A DNA stretch of 20,734 nt. Source: a virus. Positions 12,626-20,623 of the stretch are shown in pieces; the stretch's first letter is position 1, and the number at the start of each line of letters is the position of its first letter. Location of the stretch: positions 1 through 20,734 of IMG/VR virus record IMGVR_UViG_3300032241_003428, one strand, 5' to 3'. Under the pieces are notes generated by a model that saw nothing but the letters and a program-made list of their open reading frames with translations, did not search any database and had not been told where the DNA came from. Position numbers and translations under genes: made by a program.

Positions 12626-12867
12626 AACTTTTCCTCGCCACCAATGTGCCGGCGATGCCCGCCCAACCGCATGGAGCGATTTTCTACGGCACCGTCCTGA
12701 TCCTGGTCGCACTGGCGGTGTGGCTGATCTCCATTGCCTGTAAAAACTTTTTCGGGATCGCGGATAACGAGATGGACCGCTTCCGCGAGAGACATGAGCG
12801 GGATGCTTACAACAAGGCAACGAAGGTCCTTCCGGACAGGCACCATCAATCAAAGGAGGAAAAATGA
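12622..12867 (+). CDS. Small single-pass membrane protein, 81 residues
   Basis: The protein begins MKLFLATNVPAMPAQPHG and has one transmembrane helix at about residues 19-40 (AIFYGTVLILVALAVWLISI). A charged cytoplasmic-type tail rich in Arg, Glu and His follows (NEMDRFRERHERDAYNKATK). ATG 12622 overlaps the preceding TGA and lies behind GGAGGTGCGCG, a strong Shine-Dalgarno sequence. No family is recognised. A small membrane protein early in the operon could act in host takeover or superinfection exclusion, but nothing in the sequence decides this. Confidence 0.8.
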   Translation: MKLFLATNVPAMPAQPHGAIFYGTVLILVALAVWLISIACKNFFGIADNEMDRFRERHERDAYNKATKVLPDRHHQSKEEK

Positions 12868-13055
12868 ACGCAGAAGTTTACCAGTTCGATATCGCCCGCA
12901 CTTCGGATGCGGCCACGCTGCATGCTTATCGCGATGCCATCAACGAGGACCACGAGCTGACTCCGCAGGAAATGGCCACGCTCAATGACGCGATAGATAA
13001 ACGCTTCGGGGCAATGAACCGGGCCGCGCTGCCGAACCCCAAACCTCGCTATTAA
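12864..13055 (+). CDS. Small early protein, 63 residues, unknown function
   Basis: The ATG overlaps the previous stop codon (ATGA) and follows an excellent Shine-Dalgarno sequence (aaaggaggaaaa). The product is MNAEVYQFDIARTSDAATLH followed by two predicted helices (YRDAINEDHELTPQEMATLN and DAIDKRFGAMNRAAL). It is acidic and probably a helical bundle. No domain is recognised. The TAA stop at 13053-13055 is followed directly by the first of the four 15-bp palindromes. Confidence 0.75.
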   Translation: MNAEVYQFDIARTSDAATLHAYRDAINEDHELTPQEMATLNDAIDKRFGAMNRAALPNPKPRY

Positions 13056-13078
13056 TCAGCGTGACGCTGAACCCTACA
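13056..13078 (+). repeat. Post-stop palindrome, copy 1
   Basis: TCAGCGT-G-ACGCTGA (13056-13070) begins at the first base after the TAA of the upstream gene and has perfect 7-bp arms. The tail is ACCCTACA. The core CAGCGTGACGCTG is identical to copy 2, while the outermost pair is T-A here and G-C there. No ATG follows the tail. The GTG inside the palindrome (13061) is the best start for the downstream gene. Confidence 0.8.
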
Positions 13079-13582
13079 TTTGAAACGAATGGCCGGGGCA
13101 CCTTGCCCCTGCCGCCGGTGATTCAGGGCCAGCTTGGTCTCAAGCTGCCGAAGGACCATCCGGTGTTGACGGTGGATGGCGTGATGAGCGAGTGCGGCGA
13201 GTTCATGGACCTCCGCCGCGAGCATGTGCGGCAACTTTGGGAAAGCCAGGCGTTCACCGGTTTCAACATTGCGCGCGACAAGAAGACGCACCTGGAGCTG
13301 CGGCTGCTCCGCAAATCCGTGGATCTGTTCCGGGCCACGAACGGCCGGAAACATTTCATGGCGGAGTGGCCGCAAATCTTCCGGTTGCTGGTACCGCACC
13401 AGAAACCGTTCGTGACCGGCAAGGAGATCGCCCGTGTGTTGATCTGCGACCGGGGCCATGTGGAGAACCTGATCAATGACAAGGTGCTCGTGGTCCTGAA
13501 AAAATCCCAGCCCGGTCCGGGCGGCACGCCGACGATCAGCCGCGACAGCTTTGAAACCTTCCTGAAAGGACGTCTCCAATGA
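13061..13582 (+). CDS. Double excisionase-like winged-helix protein, 173 residues
   Basis: Two segments have the same outline and look like excisionase/MerR-type DNA-binding domains. The first is about residues 45-92: GEFMDLRREHVRQLWESQAF ... ELRLLRKSVDLF. The second is about 117-170: TGKEIARVLICDRGHVENLI, then KVLVVLKKSQ, GGTPTISRDSFETFL. Each has helix, recognition helix, wing and closing helix, so a tandem DNA-binding protein is likely. The start is uncertain: GTG 13061 lies within palindrome copy 1, no ATG is near, and an in-frame GTG at 13118 is the main alternative. The stop is followed by palindrome copy 4. It may regulate early genes or aid transposition; that is inference from fold and place. 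Confidence 0.75.
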   Translation: MTLNPTFETNGRGTLPLPPVIQGQLGLKLPKDHPVLTVDGVMSECGEFMDLRREHVRQLWESQAFTGFNIARDKKTHLELRLLRKSVDLFRATNGRKHFMAEWPQIFRLLVPHQKPFVTGKEIARVLICDRGHVENLINDKVLVVLKKSQPGPGGTPTISRDSFETFLKGRLQ

Positions 13583-13605
13583 CCGGCGAGTCGCCGGCTC
13601 CCCCC
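13583..13605 (+). repeat. Post-stop palindrome with different arms, copy 4
   Basis: CCGGCGA-G-TCGCCGG (13583-13597) begins directly after TGA 13580-13582. Its arms differ almost completely from copies 1-3, but the geometry is the same: 15 bp, central G, then an 8-base C-rich tail (CTCCCCCC) and ATG at 13606. No Shine-Dalgarno sequence is present between palindrome and ATG. The agreement in position with copy 2 is exact. Confidence 0.8.
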
Positions 13606-13818
13606 ATGAGCACTCAACTGAAATCAGAACTCATCACGCTTCGTAAGTCAGTGCCAGGATTCACTGGCGTGGGGACGCTTGTGGAGGAGCAGGGAGACCT
13701 GTTCGTCATCGTCTGCGCCGACGCCGCGACACTGGCTGCGACACTTACCCGCGAATTTCCGAACTTCGCTTACGACCCCGAAATGTTTCAGAAAATGACC
13801 ATCATCCAAACCAAATGA
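13606..13818 (+). CDS. Small early protein, 70 residues, unknown function
   Basis: I start at ATG 13606, eight bases after palindrome copy 4. A start at ATG 13579 would overlap the previous gene but would have to translate the palindrome and C-rich tail as a low-complexity N-terminus. The geometry shared with 17168 favours 13606. The product is MSTQLKSELITLRKSVPGFT followed by an alternating strand/helix pattern (GVGTLVEEQGDLFVIVCADA, TLAATLTREFPNFAYD), suggesting a small alpha/beta fold. No family is recognised. It ends in an ATGA overlap with the next gene. Confidence 0.7.
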   Translation: MSTQLKSELITLRKSVPGFTGVGTLVEEQGDLFVIVCADAATLAATLTREFPNFAYDPEMFQKMTIIQTK

Positions 13819-14672
13819 GCAACATGACCAAACAAGCACTGGCCGCAATCCTCGCCGCCCAAAAAGCCCGTTGGGCCAAAATCAAAGCGGCCAAGGTTCC
13901 GACCTTGACCGCCGTTGAAATAGTTAGCGGTGCCAAATTCCCCGCTGTCACTTTAAAGGCCGGAAATGACGCGGCTACGGCCAAGCAATTGAAGAAGCTG
14001 TTTGCTGATGCGCAAACCGGTTTACGCCGCATCGTGGCGCTCGGCCTGTTCGCCTGGGAGATTAAGGAGACAAAACTAAATCACGGCCAATGGGGTCCGT
14101 GGCTTGCCGATAACTGCCCGGAGCTTTCAACGATAGACGCAGCTACTCAAAAGCCGGTGGCATCGCGCGCGCTTCGTGGACACATGGAGTTGACCAAGAA
14201 CGTTCTGGAAGCCTGCGGATGCGACAGCATCGATAAGTATTTAGCGACCGTCGCCAAATTGGCAAACGATGCCAATTTGAAACCTGGCCAATTCCTCCTG
14301 ATGCCGGAAAAGAAGGTGCCGGAAAACCTGTCGGAGATGCGAGAGAAAATTTGCGCTTTGGTCGACGGCAAGACGCAACGGTCCCTATTTAGTGAGTTCA
14401 AACAACTCGACGAGGCGACCGGCAAACCGAAGCTCGGTCGACGCAAGGGCGAAGGTGGCGCGACGAAGGAGCAGCGGGCGAGCGCCGAGGAAAAGGAACG
14501 GCAGGAGCAGATCACGGAGCGGAAGCTGAAGGCGGTGGAGATCGCGGAGTGGTTGCTGGAAATGTCGGATGCGGCCGGCCTGGGCGAAATCCTGGGCACG
14601 CCGGAGATCGAGCAGCTCGACAAGGCGATGGAAACCGCGCGCGGCTTCATCAAGCACGGAGGTGCGAAGTGA
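13815..14672 (+). CDS. DUF3102-like early protein, 285 residues
   Basis: Residues about 5-27 form a basic helix (KQALAAILAAQKARWAKIKA). Residues about 71-104 carry a pattern seen in DUF3102-type phage and plasmid proteins: RRIVALGLFAWEIKETKLNH, GQWGPWLADNCPELS. Next come helices with SRALRGHMELTKNVLEACG, and a charged, probably coiled-coil region at about 215-255 (KEQRASAEEKERQEQITERK). The first half is less GC-rich than the second, which may indicate domain exchange. It starts with an ATGA overlap and ends with GTGA. DUF3102 proteins are often found near replication and partition functions, but their activity is not established. DNA binding is a reasonable guess from the basic N-terminus. 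Confidence 0.75.
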   Translation: MSNMTKQALAAILAAQKARWAKIKAAKVPTLTAVEIVSGAKFPAVTLKAGNDAATAKQLKKLFADAQTGLRRIVALGLFAWEIKETKLNHGQWGPWLADNCPELSTIDAATQKPVASRALRGHMELTKNVLEACGCDSIDKYLATVAKLANDANLKPGQFLLMPEKKVPENLSEMREKICALVDGKTQRSLFSEFKQLDEATGKPKLGRRKGEGGATKEQRASAEEKERQEQITERKLKAVEIAEWLLEMSDAAGLGEILGTPEIEQLDKAMETARGFIKHGGAK

Positions 14673-14896
14673 GCACCATCAATACCCGCGTGCTGATCGT
14701 TAAGGGCGAAAAATATATCAGCGTCAAAGATTTTGTCCGGGCACTCAACAACGATGACCTGATGGAGAAATGCGGCGCGGTGATGAAGGTCGGGCCTGAA
14801 AAAGGTGAAACGCCGCACGGAACCATCCGCGTCGGTATCGCTTGCGCCATGTGGATTTTAAGCGGCGAGGAGCAGGACCATTCTTTCCGAAACTGA
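14669..14896 (+). CDS. Small early protein, 75 residues, unknown function
   Basis: GTG 14669 overlaps the previous TGA (GTGA) and follows a strong Shine-Dalgarno sequence (GGAGGTGCGAA). The frame is open further upstream, but that part overlaps the preceding gene. The product is MSTINTRVLIVKGEKYISVK followed by DFVRALNNDDLMEKCGAVMK and ends near AMWILSGEEQDHSFRN. The first part resembles a small strand/helix element (KYISVKDFVRAL) as in some phage DNA-binding proteins. No family is recognised. It ends one base before the transposase ATG. Confidence 0.75.
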   Translation: MSTINTRVLIVKGEKYISVKDFVRALNNDDLMEKCGAVMKVGPEKGETPHGTIRVGIACAMWILSGEEQDHSFRN

Positions 14897-14897
14897 A

Positions 14898-17144
14898 ATG
14901 ATCTCTTCGATTGAAAATTTAGGCGACGCCGGTTTGCCGGCATCAACTACCAAAAATGAGCCAAGCGGATCGCTGGTTCAAACGGCGTCGCTTTCTCTCA
15001 CCACAAGCGGCAGCGGTCTGGTAGCGGTTCCACATGGAACAGGCGGCGGATCGTTGCTGCCGGTGGCGTGCGTGAAAACCTATCTCGCGCAGCGGACGGT
15101 GGCGGTCTGCCGGTATCAATTGGAAATACCGCTCTTCAACCGTCTACCGCTGCTGCTGCGCAACGAGGTGCGGCGGTTGCAGGCGGCGGTGGAATACGTG
15201 CAGTCGCTCACGACGGGACGCACGGCGATCAAGGTGCAGCCAGCGTGTGAAATGGCGCTGCGGATTTATACGGAGTTCCGCCCGCTCGGCACGTTTCGCG
15301 GCAAGTTTGATCTGTGGCTGCGCTCGCAGGACTGGCTCACCCTGGTGAATCGCGCCAAGGCCGGTCCGGCGTGGCAGACCACGCAACGCGGCTTGAGCGA
15401 CACGTTCCTGGATTACGTCGCGAAGCGGGCCGGCGAATTCAAGCGCGGCGACACGATGGAGCAGGCGATCCTATCCATCCACCGCCAATGGATCACGGGC
15501 CGCACGCAACACGGCATCGCGGAACCAGTGGCGGGTTATGAAGTCCTTCCGGACGGGCGACGGTGGGAAGATCGGCAACGCGCGGTCCTGCCCGATGGCT
15601 GGCATTCCACGAACATCCGGCAGCAGATCAAGAAGCGCGCGAAGTTCACGAAGGCGGTCAAGGCGATGCTTCACCAGGGGTGCGCTGCCGCACGGGCTTA
15701 TACGCCGAATGTTCACAGCACCAGGGATGATGGCACACCATTGAGGTTCATGGAGCTGGTGCAGTTCGACGACGTGCGTTGCGATTTCCGCGTAATGGAT
15801 ACCGAGAGCGGACAGGTGAACGATCTGTGGCTCCTGATCGCGCGGGATGTGGCTACCGGGATGTTGCTCGGCTTCGGCATGCGTCCGGCGCGGGCGCGGG
15901 ATGACGGGTCGCAGGAACATCTCAAGCTGCAAGACATGAAGCAGCTCTGCGGCTGGTTGCTGGAGACGTTTGGTCTGCCGCCGTATCAGATGACCTGGGT
16001 GCTGGAGAACGGCACGGCCACGCTCGGCGAGGCGGTACGCGCAGCCTTGCGCGAAATGGTCGGTGAGGACCGCATCAAGTTCGAGATGGCGCAGATGATA
16101 GGGGGCAAATCTTCGATGGGCTATTGGGAAAAGGCCGTTGGTAATTCCAAGGCCAAGGCGATGCTGGAATGTCTGAACCGGTTGATGCACATGATGGCAT
16201 CGTATTTCCCCGGCCAGATCGGCTTGAACTATTCCAAGGTGCCGGCGGAGCTGCGCGACCGCGAGCGCGAGGCGGTCGAAATCTGGTCCGGAGCACGGCC
16301 ATCCGACCGGGCGGAATTGCGTTATCCGTTTTACACCATTCCCCAGGCGCGCACCGGTCTGTTTGAAATCTTCACGCTCCAGAACCGGCGCTGGACGCAC
16401 AAGATGGAAGGCTTCAAGGAAATCGCGGAGTGGTACGACGCGGCGGCGGATCAATGGAAGCCGGCACAGAGCGCACCGGCGGATATGACCGGCGTGCGGA
16501 CGCGTCGCCGCAAGGAAACTCCGTTGGAACGCGCCGCCTGGTTGCTGGCACCGTACAAAAATAATTTCCAGCCGGTATCGCCGGAAATCCTCACGGCCTT
16601 TTACGAGCACACGCAACGGACGGTGGTCGTGTCCGACAAAGGCCAGGTGCAGATCATGGTGGATGGAAAAACTTTCCGCTTCTCGCCGCCAGCGCCGGCG
16701 TTTGCCTTGCCACCCGAAACGAAGTGCCTGGGGTACTTCAACCCCGACGATCCGCGTTTCCTCACCCTGACGGATGGTCGCGGCGGCGTGCTCGGTACCT
16801 GGGCACGGGTCGGATTGGTGAAGCATGGCGATACCGAGGCGCTGGCGGCGGCGATCCGTCATTCCACGACCGCGCTGAACGCGGTGAAGACCCGCGCACA
16901 CGATCTCGCCAGCGGCGACCGCGAGCAGCTCGAAGCCATGCGCGAACACAACCGGCAGGTTGCCGGGACCAATCAGGATTTCATCACCGTGGGTGCTTCC
17001 GCACTGGCAGCGGAGCAGAAACCACTTTCATCGCCCGTGGCCCGGACGGTGCGGGCGGTGATGACGGAGAAACAGAAAACCAAAAAGCAGCAGCAGCGGC
17101 GCGACGAGGACGAACGCATCGCGCGCGAGGCGCTGGAACTCTGA
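14898..17144 (+). CDS. MuA-like transposase (DDE-family integrase core)
   Basis: This 748-residue protein should catalyse phage DNA integration and replicative transposition. Residues about 55-250 are helical and probably bind the phage ends (MuA-like N-terminal region). The RNase H-like core spans about 280-440. The first catalytic Asp is D291 (or D292) in LVQFDDVRCDF, followed by DLWLLIARDVATGMLLGFGM. The second position is E370 in WVLENGTATLGEA, where MuA has Asp. The third is E424 in AMLECLNRLMHMM. A beta-barrel-like region follows (about 600-650), then a basic, glutamine-rich C-terminus (EKQKTKKQQQRRDEDERIAR) that may contact the MuB-like ATPase. No strong Shine-Dalgarno sequence precedes the ATG. 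The stop is followed directly by palindrome copy 2. Confidence 0.92.
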   Translation: MISSIENLGDAGLPASTTKNEPSGSLVQTASLSLTTSGSGLVAVPHGTGGGSLLPVACVKTYLAQRTVAVCRYQLEIPLFNRLPLLLRNEVRRLQAAVEYVQSLTTGRTAIKVQPACEMALRIYTEFRPLGTFRGKFDLWLRSQDWLTLVNRAKAGPAWQTTQRGLSDTFLDYVAKRAGEFKRGDTMEQAILSIHRQWITGRTQHGIAEPVAGYEVLPDGRRWEDRQRAVLPDGWHSTNIRQQIKKRAKFTKAVKAMLHQGCAAARAYTPNVHSTRDDGTPLRFMELVQFDDVRCDFRVMDTESGQVNDLWLLIARDVATGMLLGFGMRPARARDDGSQEHLKLQDMKQLCGWLLETFGLPPYQMTWVLENGTATLGEAVRAALREMVGEDRIKFEMAQMIGGKSSMGYWEKAVGNSKAKAMLECLNRLMHMMASYFPGQIGLNYSKVPAELRDREREAVEIWSGARPSDRAELRYPFYTIPQARTGLFEIFTLQNRRWTHKMEGFKEIAEWYDAAADQWKPAQSAPADMTGVRTRRRKETPLERAAWLLAPYKNNFQPVSPEILTAFYEHTQRTVVVSDKGQVQIMVDGKTFRFSPPAPAFALPPETKCLGYFNPDDPRFLTLTDGRGGVLGTWARVGLVKHGDTEALAAAIRHSTTALNAVKTRAHDLASGDREQLEAMREHNRQVAGTNQDFITVGASALAAEQKPLSSPVARTVRAVMTEKQKTKKQQQRRDEDERIAREALEL

Positions 17145-17167
17145 GCAGCGTGACGCTGCACCCAACT
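17145..17167 (+). repeat. Post-stop palindrome, copy 2
   Basis: GCAGCGT-G-ACGCTGC (17145-17159) begins at the first base after the transposase TGA. The 8-base tail ACCCAACT leads directly to ATG 17168. It differs from copy 3 at four positions: two compensating arm pairs... specifically G/C versus A/T at the third pair, plus one tail base; the arms remain perfectly complementary in both. No Shine-Dalgarno sequence is present. Confidence 0.85.
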
Positions 17168-17563
17168 ATGAACGCCGACCCGAAATTCCAAGCCGCCATC
17201 GCCCAGGAGATCGTGTGGAAGAGCCACGAGCTGCAACGGTTCGCGGTTACGCTGGTCGAGAAGGCGTTGGCGAAGGGCGGTCATTTCACCACGGACCTGG
17301 TGCCGGATGATTCACGCGGCGACGGCAGCGGGATCGCCGGCAGCGTGGTGGAGTTGCTGAAGAATGCAAAGGTGCTTCAGCCGGTCGGTCACGTCGATGG
17401 ATCGGGCCAATGGTATGCGCTGCGGACCAAGTCCACGCGCGCAGGCCGCAAGGGTGCCTGGCTGAACGTGTACCAGCTCACCAGTCCGGCCCTGGCTTCT
17501 GAATTTCTACGGCGGCACGGCCTGCCGAAGCCGCTCAAGCAGGATGAATTTGCCCTGGCTTAA
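17168..17563 (+). CDS. Winged-helix-like early protein, 131 residues
   Basis: I start at ATG 17168, eight bases after palindrome copy 2. The GTG inside the palindrome (17150) is in frame and is the alternative. The protein begins MNADPKFQAAIAQEIVWKSH, then has a helix-rich part, a GHFTTDLVPDD turn, VVELLKNAKVLQPVGHVDGS (probable recognition helix and wing), and QWYALRTKSTRAGRKGAWLN with VYQLTSPALASEFLRRHG. This outline resembles a winged-helix domain with a basic extension. It lies between the transposase and the MuB-like gene. A DNA-binding role in replication is plausible, but no named family is recognised. Confidence 0.75.
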   Translation: MNADPKFQAAIAQEIVWKSHELQRFAVTLVEKALAKGGHFTTDLVPDDSRGDGSGIAGSVVELLKNAKVLQPVGHVDGSGQWYALRTKSTRAGRKGAWLNVYQLTSPALASEFLRRHGLPKPLKQDEFALA

Positions 17564-17574
17564 CGGGGCATTAA
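17560..17574. promoter_or_regulatory. TTAACG-N3-CATTAA near-palindrome before the MuB-like gene
   Basis: TTAACGGGGCATTAA includes the TAA stop of the upstream gene. It matches 14 of 15 bases of the perfect palindrome at 6548-6562 (TTAACGGGGCGTTAA). Related but weaker forms occur at 978-992, 10648-10662, 18597-18611 and 18608-18622. It may be a protein-binding site or chance; the function is unknown. Confidence 0.35.
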
Positions 17575-17600
17575 ACAAAACAACACCGAAGGAAAATAAG

Positions 17601-18572
17601 ATGGAAAACGCGACAACTAAAACCACGGCGGTGATCCCATCGCCACACTACAACCAAGCCTTGCGGCAGCGTCTTTTGGACCTCCGCAACGGTCCGACCA
17701 AGTTGGATTTTTCCAACAACAAGATGGCGAAGAAGCTCGGCGTCAATTCGAGCTACGTGAGCCAGTATTGCAACGGCGGGGAGTTCAACGGCGATCTCAT
17801 CAGCTTCGAGAAAAAGCTGGAGGATTTCTTCCGCAACGAGGCGCGCCGGCGTTTGAGCGGCGTGGAGACCATCGCCACCGACGAGACGAAGTCCGTGAGC
17901 GAGGCGCTGGAGACCTTGCGCAAGCTGAACGAGATCGGCTGCATCGTGCTGGAGAGCGGCGGCGGCAAGACACGCAGCGAGGAGCTGTACCTCAAGGAAA
18001 ATCCCACGGCCATCCACTTCCAGGTGCGGTCGTGGAACTGCGACAAAGGTTCCGTGGAAGGCGCGCTGTTCAAGGCCGTGGGCACGGCAGGCTATGACGG
18101 CCACACCAAGCGCGCGGAGTTCATGGTCACGAAACTGACCGGATCGGACCGGCTGCTGATCATCGGCGATGCGCACAAGCTGACCAAGGCGGCGTTGCAA
18201 TGGGTGGTGGATTTTTGGGAGGCGACACTGATCCCCATCGCCCTGATCGGCACCCACGCCCTGCACGATCTGTTGATGAGCGATACGCAACGCTTCAGCC
18301 GCATCCAGCTCTGGAACGAGATCAAGCCGGCGAATCAGCGGGTGCTCATCACGCACCTGGCCACGAGCCTGATGCCGGACCTCAACGGCGAACAGGAATC
18401 TGTCATTGACCAGGGCGAACAGATCGTTGCGCACGAGGGTTGTTACCGGGCCGTTTACAAACAGTTCAAGCTCGCGGAAGAAATCCGCAGCCGGGCGAGG
18501 AAACCCATCACCGCCGTGCAGGCCGTACGCTCGGCGCACACGAAGTTGCTGCGCGACTGGCAGCTCAACTGA
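17601..18572 (+). CDS. MuB-like AAA+ ATPase (target selection / transposition activator)
   Basis: I start at ATG 17601, which has a Shine-Dalgarno sequence (gaaggaaaataag); an upstream in-frame start at 17544 overlaps the previous gene. The protein has 323 residues. An N-terminal helix-turn-helix lies at about 34-66 (NKMAKKLGVNSSYVSQYCNG), as in MuB. The ATPase core starts near 105, with a Walker A-like LESGGGKTRS (117-126), Walker B position RLLIIGDAHKL (184-194), sensor-1-like IALIGTH (213-219) and an Arg-rich RFSRI (231-235). MuB proteins bind target DNA as ATP-dependent filaments and activate the transposase. Two motif positions are unusual: Leu for the first Gly of the P-loop, and GD in place of the usual DE of Walker B. 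Confidence 0.88.
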   Translation: MENATTKTTAVIPSPHYNQALRQRLLDLRNGPTKLDFSNNKMAKKLGVNSSYVSQYCNGGEFNGDLISFEKKLEDFFRNEARRRLSGVETIATDETKSVSEALETLRKLNEIGCIVLESGGGKTRSEELYLKENPTAIHFQVRSWNCDKGSVEGALFKAVGTAGYDGHTKRAEFMVTKLTGSDRLLIIGDAHKLTKAALQWVVDFWEATLIPIALIGTHALHDLLMSDTQRFSRIQLWNEIKPANQRVLITHLATSLMPDLNGEQESVIDQGEQIVAHEGCYRAVYKQFKLAEEIRSRARKPITAVQAVRSAHTKLLRDWQLN

Positions 18573-18595
18573 GCAACGTGACGTTGCATCCAACT
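18573..18595 (+). repeat. Post-stop palindrome, copy 3
   Basis: GCAACGT-G-ACGTTGC (18573-18587) begins at the first base after the TGA of the MuB-like gene. Compared with copy 2, a G-C pair has become A-T on both arms, so symmetry is kept. The tail is ATCCAACT, followed by ATT where copy 2 has ATG. The next plausible start codon is 30 bases further on (18625). Two TTAA-containing near-palindromes (18597-18611 and 18608-18622) follow. Confidence 0.85.
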
Positions 18596-20065: not shown

Positions 20066-20623
20066 ATGATAATGCTCAATGAAACCGGCGGCGGTGATTC
20101 CCAGGACTTCGCCCGCTTTGTCGAACTGCAACAGAAACACACACAGCTATCCAACCAGCTCGAAGCGTTGGAGGTGAAGATGAACGAATCCGCGAACAAG
20201 GCGGCTACGGCCGGCGCGGAAGATTACGTCGTGATCCACGAGGAGCTATCCAAACTGGACACGGAATTGAAGTCGCTGTTCGAGCGGCATCCGGAGTGGC
20301 GCGGTGAAAAGAAGAGCGTCGGCACGCCCTTCGGATCGGTCGAGCAACGCACGGCCACGGAGCTACAGGTCGAGAATCCGGCGCAGACCGTCGCGCTGAT
20401 CGAGTTGACGGGCAAGACCAAGAAGGGATTCGATGCGGAATCGTTCCTGCATATCAGCAAGGAACCGAACCTGGAAGCGTTGGAGCAGCTCGGCGATGAA
20501 GCGCTGGCCGAAATCGGTGTGAAGCGCGTACGCACCGAGCGCATCACTGTAAAGCCGGCCAAGGTCAGCGTGGCCAAGGCGGTGAAGGCGGCTAAGAAGA
20601 CCCGGACGGAAGTGCAATCATGA
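20066..20623 (+). CDS. gam: Gam-like host-nuclease inhibitor / DNA-end protector
   Basis: This 185-residue protein resembles Mu Gam, which binds double-stranded DNA ends and protects them from RecBCD-type exonucleases. Residues about 15-85 form a long coiled coil (FVELQQKHTQLSNQLEALEV ... LSKLDTELKSLFERHPEW). The Gam-like core follows, with KSVGTPFGSVEQRTATELQV (about 87-106), a helix near 130 (DAESFLHISKEPNLEALEQL), GDEALAEIGVKRVRTERITV and a Lys-rich tail. The ATG is preceded by an A-rich gataaaaaa and no Shine-Dalgarno sequence; a second in-frame ATG (codon 3) is also possible. It is in the early operon after A and B, as in Mu, and ends with an ATGA overlap. Confidence 0.85.
   Translation: MIMLNETGGGDSQDFARFVELQQKHTQLSNQLEALEVKMNESANKAATAGAEDYVVIHEELSKLDTELKSLFERHPEWRGEKKSVGTPFGSVEQRTATELQVENPAQTVALIELTGKTKKGFDAESFLHISKEPNLEALEQLGDEALAEIGVKRVRTERITVKPAKVSVAKAVKAAKKTRTEVQS

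Follow-up and report, generated by a model that had tools for sequence, protein, structure and literature searches.

The IMG/VR virus record IMGVR_UViG_3300032241_003428, whose 20,734 bases make up the window (the whole stretch of DNA analysed here), is a Mu-like phage by its profile matches to a MuA-like transposase, a MuB-like ATPase, a Gam-like protein, a portal and a Mu-F-like protein. Its early region carries four perfect palindromes, each with a stop codon immediately before it (TAA, TGA, TGA and TGA), exactly where an earlier note on this DNA had placed them. Those at 13056, 17145 and 18573 are copies of one element, a 15-nt hairpin NCARCG-TGA-CGYTGN' followed by a directional 3' tail AYCC(A/G/T)A, with its orientation fixed by the central G and by the tail on the 3' side (AYCC(A/T)AC in the three window copies). 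The earlier note had also distinguished three related palindromes from an odd one, but its numbering followed sequence and not position: the odd one is the palindrome at 13583 (CCGGCGAGTCGCCGG), not that at 18573. These four are the only odd palindromes with 7-bp arms (15 nt) in the window, and because a first-order Markov model expects about two, their number is weak evidence. The placement and common sequence of the three related copies are not chance, because they share the tail A[CT]CC[AT]AC and because docking at the first base after a stop, which we call the +1 rule, holds independently in external sequence.

Table 1. Palindromes and genes of the window, with their coordinates
Feature	Position	Strand	Details
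TAA stop of small upstream gene (12864-13055)	13053..13055	+	gene has a homologue in the related phage L002, 37% identity
Element copy 1, hairpin TCAGCG-TGA-CGCTGA	13056..13070	+	+1 of the TAA
Tail of copy 1, ACCCTAC	13071..13077	+	GTAGGGT on the minus strand
173-aa gene	13061..13582	+	likeliest start is the GTG within hairpin copy 1
Palindrome 2, CCGGCGAGTCGCCGG	13583..13597	+	+1 of a TGA; arms, loop and tail unrelated
Gene after palindrome 2	13606..13818	+	
MuA-like transposase gene	14898..17144	+	stop TGA; phrog_310, E=1.3e-8
Element copy 3, hairpin GCAGCG-TGA-CGCTGC = GCAGCGTGACGCTGC	17145..17159	+	+1 of the transposase stop
Tail of copy 3, ACCCAAC	17160..17166	+	with one further T, makes up the whole spacer to ATG 17168
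Gene after copy 3	17168..17563	+	ATG 17168, or GTG 17150 within the hairpin
MuB-like AAA ATPase gene (B)	17601..18572	+	stop TGA; ORF may start at 17544; phrog_296, E=8.7e-34; PF13401 AAA_22
Element copy 4, hairpin GCAACG-TGA-CGTTGC = GCAACGTGACGTTGC	18573..18587	+	+1 of the B gene stop
Tail of copy 4, ATCCAAC	18588..18594	+	
Gam-like protein	20066-20623		
Portal and Mu-F-like protein		-	

Folding as RNA gives each of the four palindromes a stem of 6 bp closed by a loop of three bases, at -5.6 to -9.4 kcal/mol; the three related copies have UGA as their loop, and the palindrome at 13583 has, written as DNA, AGT. The tails ACCCTACATTT, ACCCAACTATG and ATCCAACTATT have no T-run after the hairpin, a feature of intrinsic terminators, and a cmscan of the window against Rfam with permissive filters gave two weak matches, neither of them at the palindromes. 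The 173-aa gene probably starts inside copy 1, because no alternative in-frame start occurs before residue 15 and the similarity to its homologues in the related phages L364 (59% identity) and L002 (52%) extends from residue 17 to residue 173. An ATG lies exactly 8 nt after 13597 and after 17159 without a Shine-Dalgarno sequence, as the earlier note had observed; about half of the starts nearby have such a sequence. The ATG at 13606 agrees with the start of the L002 homologue (MSTQLKSEL / MSSELKSHL), and the gene at 17168 has a homologue in L364 (59%) and none in L002. The MuA-like transposase (14898-17144) had no match among about 50,000 annotated phage records and was unrecognised by Pfam.

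The palindrome at 13583 is not a member of the element and is probably a chance occurrence; its loop, tail and arms differ, and L002 and L364 lack it. We rejected it as the founder of a second stop-linked family: ten phage matches have a preceding TRA, only one of them behind a long open reading frame (ORF), and elsewhere the sequence behind TRA lies mostly away from gene ends.

Searching about 85,000 genomes of bacteria and archaea for CARCGTGACGYTGCAYCCNAC returned at least 120 stretches, which among the matches listed come mainly from Selenomonadaceae, rumen Clostridia and Verrucomicrobia. Of the 162 copies in the bacterial loci from this search, 160 have a paired variable stem position, and the outer stem pair is G-C, C-G or, rarely, A-T. 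Whole-genome counts gave 148 copies in the Verrucomicrobia genome Tous-C9LFEB (G005), 59 in its sister genome G417 and 58 in the Selenomonadaceae genome G006, with no copies of a reversed control pattern in the same counts. The distribution is patchy, the element being present in seven of 388 sampled genomes of the G005 phylum. It also occurs in many phage contigs in both orientations, with 107 distinct, paired copies in two viral-contig scans made without any stop requirement. Many copies in G005 and G417 form inverted, REPIN-like pairs (CCAGC../GCAAC..) about 47 nt apart and in opposite orientation. A literature search for the element sequence found no relevant paper, and in the literature searched this hairpin repeat, widely dispersed over phages and several bacterial phyla, appears to be unnamed.

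To describe its position relative to genes, we call a copy docked when its first base directly follows the in-frame stop of an ORF of 60 or more codons; the rule was assessed in the two sister genomes and in phages of unproven host, plus Firmicutes loci. In phages, 22 of the 107 copies sit at +1, whereas the positions 1-20 nt further on hold about nine in total (~0.45 each), and in Verrucomicrobia the +1 copies number 19 of 80 in G005 and 14 of 50 in G417. These +1 counts have Poisson P of ~1e-29 and 1e-16 in independent sets. Neither random positions nor reverse-orientation copies gave a +1 peak, and a general preference of hairpins for +1 was rejected, other hairpins in the same phage contigs being found there three times with 1.9 expected; the control sets were drawn from the same loci, not from whole genomes. 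The enrichment after stop codons that the earlier note had proposed to look for is thus present in phages and Verrucomicrobia, exactly at +1, in coding orientation and at in-frame stops only, and its reading of the palindromes as a dispersed repeat inserting behind stops has good support for three of the four in the window.

Docking follows the reading frame. Of the 24 phage copies preceded by a stop trinucleotide, 22 have it as the end of an ORF of 60 codons or more (one-third expected by frame; P ~4e-9), and in the remaining two it ends ORFs of 27 and 35 codons. We therefore rejected insertion at TRA/TAG irrespective of frame; because 22 of 24 are genuine in-frame stops of long ORFs, the stop trinucleotide is not in itself the target. 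G005 has 14 exceptions to the in-frame stop, and those inspected all lie within a composite repeat, ...AGGATGA|CCAGCG. A role for the element's own TGA as a preferred gene end was dropped, since its frame counts in phages are not clearly skewed (24/20/38), and this class is therefore mostly read-through into the element. A hint of a change in stop-codon identity upon insertion appeared in a partial count but did not reach significance when all were counted (Fisher P 0.14). Apart from one pair, the docked phage genes are unrelated to one another; among them are genes for a small terminase, a neck protein, a head-morphogenesis protein and two different capsid proteins. Most of the phage copies are undocked.

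We aligned orthologous gene ends of G005 and G417 (DNA identity 82-99%) at which the element stands at +1 in one or both genomes, and read the hairpin classes from the alignments. At all 27 such ends the native stop is at the same place in both genomes, and the other genome has a hairpin of the same family at 11 ends (some of them decayed), a different hairpin at 10 and none at six. The commonest replacement, CAGGGC-TGA-GCCCTG, shares the UGA loop and the ACCC tail. At L402/L434, for instance, G417 reads tag|CCAGCGTGACGCTGG|ACCCTGTAATGCTTCGCC and G005 reads tag|CAGGGCTGAGCCCTGC|ACCCTGTAACGCTTCGCC, and at one site G005 carries a complete inverted pair between the stop and an older hairpin that is present in G417. 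Before ruvC, both genomes read TAA|GCAGCGTGACGCTGC|ACCCAGT|ATG, the same anatomy as window copy 3. These swaps bear on the compensating arm changes that the earlier note had read from the window. Covariation of the arms is indeed perfect in nearly all copies, with the variable stem position paired in all but two of the 162, but in the sister genomes several symmetric changes are wholesale hairpin replacement and not stepwise compensation, so that changing sequence with kept symmetry is, in several cases, replacement.

Among related phages, the hairpin at the end of B is kept in the window, in L364 (B 59% identical) and in L002 (46%), with an A-T/G-C stem exchange and a different tail among the three; L366 (B 43%) has another palindrome, TTAACCGGCGGTTAA, overlapping its B stop. 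At the junction behind the transposase gene A, the window has a forward element and L364 a related one in reverse, TAAACGTCACGTTTA, which fills exactly the space from the TAA to the A of the ATG; L002 has neither an element nor the following gene at this junction, and in the relative L367 the sites are absent. Within the capsid family of this phage group, only one of about 16 distinct homologues has the element at its stop; this is L467, which is the same contig as L302. The hairpin behind the L185/L286 gene (46%) is retained with a changed stop and stem. This pattern of presence among relatives indicates frequent gain and loss with some long retention.

Several further arrangements of the element were seen. 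Firmicutes copies (L004-L083, from Selenomonadaceae and Clostridia) consist of the hairpin and an ATCCAAC tail, followed by a second, different conserved stretch, and several lie in short tandem arrays (L013, L057, L082). In G005 the composite repeat GATCCTTCGACAAGCTCAGGATGA, itself an inverted repeat (ATCCT...AGGAT), stands directly 5' of many extragenic CCAGCGTGACGCTGG copies (for example L324, L327 and L330). In phages L187, L191, L207, L209 and L317 the element lies in a readable frame within the start of what seems to be the same gene (MDKWDAC...), with the stem variants GCAAC, GCAGC and CCAAC. A G005 locus, L436, has a hairpin GCAGCG-TAA-CGCTGC centred on the native TAA, so that the loop is the stop codon itself. 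Nine-base tandem duplications CCAGCGTGA|CCAGCGTGACGCTGG occur at gene ends (L337 at 1601, minus strand; L338 at 2497, plus strand; L197 at 7804, minus strand), and the G417 orthologue of one of these sites lacks the duplication.

The element resembles the REP (repetitive extragenic palindrome), BIME and REPIN repeats in its short perfect palindrome with a 3-nt loop, its directional tail at one end, its dispersed copies, inverted pairs and compensating stem variants, and its preference for 3' ends. GTAG REPs have been reported in the verrucomicrobium Opitutus terrae, and REPs are described within about 20 nt of gene ends, where GTAG tags often provide a TAG stop (Di Nocera 2013, PMC3733652; Nunvar 2010, PMC2817692; Bertels and Rainey 2011, PMC3116915). 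A 15-nt hairpin with a tail of about 7 nt, present in 148, 59 and 58 copies in the three genomes counted, agrees with the REP pattern of a 20-40 nt palindrome with a short loop and high copy number; inverted pairs of the BIME/REPIN kind are found in G005 and G417, and the element is mostly extragenic and near gene 3' ends, as REPs are. It differs in its tag: the common part of its opposite-strand tail is only GGRT, with varying outer bases. GTAG occurs in window copy 1 only, copies 3 and 4 share GTTG with most Firmicutes copies, and G005 has TACTGGGT. One ORF resembling a RAYT (REP-associated tyrosine transposase), L140 (1324-1803, plus strand, in G019), has the element about 130 nt upstream and is a possible cognate transposase; other Y1 ORFs lack it, and the Selenomonadaceae genomes tested yielded no Y1 transposase. 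Element pairs 350-1600 nt apart were examined for an enclosed transposase gene, and none was found. We do not file the element as a GTAG REP, because the tag differs and the link to a RAYT is not established. By analogy, however, it appears to work like a REP.

Precise +1 docking and hairpin swapping at the docks are absent from the REP literature compared. The RepRanger paper (PMC12306157) cites Liang 2015 for ribosome stalling by E. coli REPs within 15 nt of a stop, and the likeness of these translation-regulating REPs to the element is a hairpin close behind the stop on the mRNA. A hairpin within 15 nt of the upstream stop is found here too, at 0 nt in three window copies and in the docked phage copies. 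E. coli REPs are described at any distance up to 15-20 nt from the stop, whereas the element peaks at exactly 0 nt and its 6-bp stem is shorter and weaker. CGTC-tagged REPs (RPE-like; PMC3733652) are likewise dispersed palindromes without a dedicated transposase; they carry a terminal CGTC, whereas the element has CGTC at neither end and only within its stem-loop, on the minus strand. A likeness of the tail to the RYYYAAC of integron attC sites was dropped, since 23 of 159 copies have G, C or T at a position that therefore varies.

Exact placement behind in-frame stops and the orientation bias of the copies could also reflect a conserved stop-hairpin-start module for termination and re-initiation, in which a hairpin refolding behind the ribosome couples or limits the next gene. 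Such RNA punctuation would fit the retention of the hairpin at the end of B in three phages, and at that of the L185/L286 gene despite its changed stop and stem, as well as the ATG found within about 15 nt downstream of roughly nine of the 22 docked phage copies, most of them without a Shine-Dalgarno sequence. Yet in the sister genome several docked hairpins show uncompensated decay (two sites and L426), a single capsid homologue has the element, and the majority of phage copies are undocked. The docked copies in bacteria, moreover, nearly all precede a non-coding repeat and not a start codon, and the A junction of L364 tolerates the reverse orientation, which leaves the general stop/restart role put forward in the earlier note unsupported; we regard a dedicated module of this kind as unlikely. 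Its other proposal, double-stranded dyad sites in the early operon for a phage protein such as a transposase or repressor, would account for the core CGTGACG conserved in these odd palindromes and for their directional tail, with three of them in the early region of a Mu-like phage. The same element, however, lies at gene ends across bacterial phyla and unrelated phages, is missing from L367 and reversed at one L364 junction, and a DNA-binding protein would be unable to sense a reading frame; because the distribution spans phyla and phages and the placement depends on frame, we rejected this reading as highly improbable.

Two further readings have almost no probability left to them. Short palindromes are common enough that some will follow stops by chance, as the Markov expectation allows and as the 13583 copy illustrates, but a 22-nt core recurs at more than 100 genome loci among the matches listed, the reversed control gave none, and the Poisson probabilities in independent genome and phage sets refute chance for the three related copies. 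Equally hard to credit is a constraint at the protein level, by which genes starting at the hairpin GTG would encode an N-terminal peptide VTLHPT/VTLNPT: the frame GTG ACG YTG NAY CCN AC is open in three copies, but behind copy 4 it enters only a short overlapping ORF, the element is mostly non-coding in bacteria, and the L002 and L364 homologues lack the peptide.

Dispersal, inverted pairs, precise docking, and turnover and swapping at fixed stops were all observed. We consider it likely that the palindromes at 13056, 17145 and 18573 are copies of a REP-like dispersed palindrome, mobile or convertible, docked on native stops where its retention is harmless or mildly useful; the inverted REPIN-like pairs support the mobile or convertible nature. 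The element would have spread by a mobile or gene-conversion process, as REPs and REPINs do, and may have reached this Mu-like phage from a probably verrucomicrobial host pool (24 of the 388 genomes sampled from the G005 phylum contain distant prophage relatives of MuA). Copies right behind stops would be retained where they disturb no gene, the hairpin refolding only once the terminating ribosome has left, which would be harmless or of modest help; candidate forms of help at the RNA level are protection of the mRNA 3' end, termination and control of the gene that follows. Where phage operons are compact, the element may make up the whole spacer and also provide start codons, as the GTG in the hairpin or the ATG past the tail.

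Several points weigh against a REP-like, harmlessly retained palindrome. The stop calls come from mechanical ORFs and not from annotated genes, and some of the metagenomic virus records are fragments. In Firmicutes the +1 rule is weak (4 of 141 copies). No mobilising enzyme was found for the element, and Y1_Tnp (PF01797) ORFs, present in four of 14 element-bearing genomes, are mostly not flanked by it. Random insertion followed by purging fails by itself to explain why position 0 exceeds positions 1-20 about 50-fold, and harmlessness alone does not account for this preference. Conservation behind B (three phages, 46-59%) and behind the L185/L286 gene (46%) exceeds what a drifting insertion would be expected to show, indicating some function.

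A more specific version, held only tentatively and with more doubt than belief, is that the element is one of a class of mobile hairpins, with at least two unrelated stems sharing the UGA loop and ACCC tail, whose insertion, conversion or retention is translation-aware. Should this be true, the class would dock at the base after genuine in-frame stops, and the gene ends of some Verrucomicrobiota and their phages would be interchangeable hairpin sockets. REPs are usually placed in the neighbourhood of gene 3' ends; a repeat that keeps exactly the +1 position in phages and Verrucomicrobia while its hairpin type is swapped implies either selection at the terminating ribosome or spread coupled to translation. 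The element also has a searchable signature, and phage operons would be a natural assay for the effects of REP-like hairpins on termination and re-initiation.

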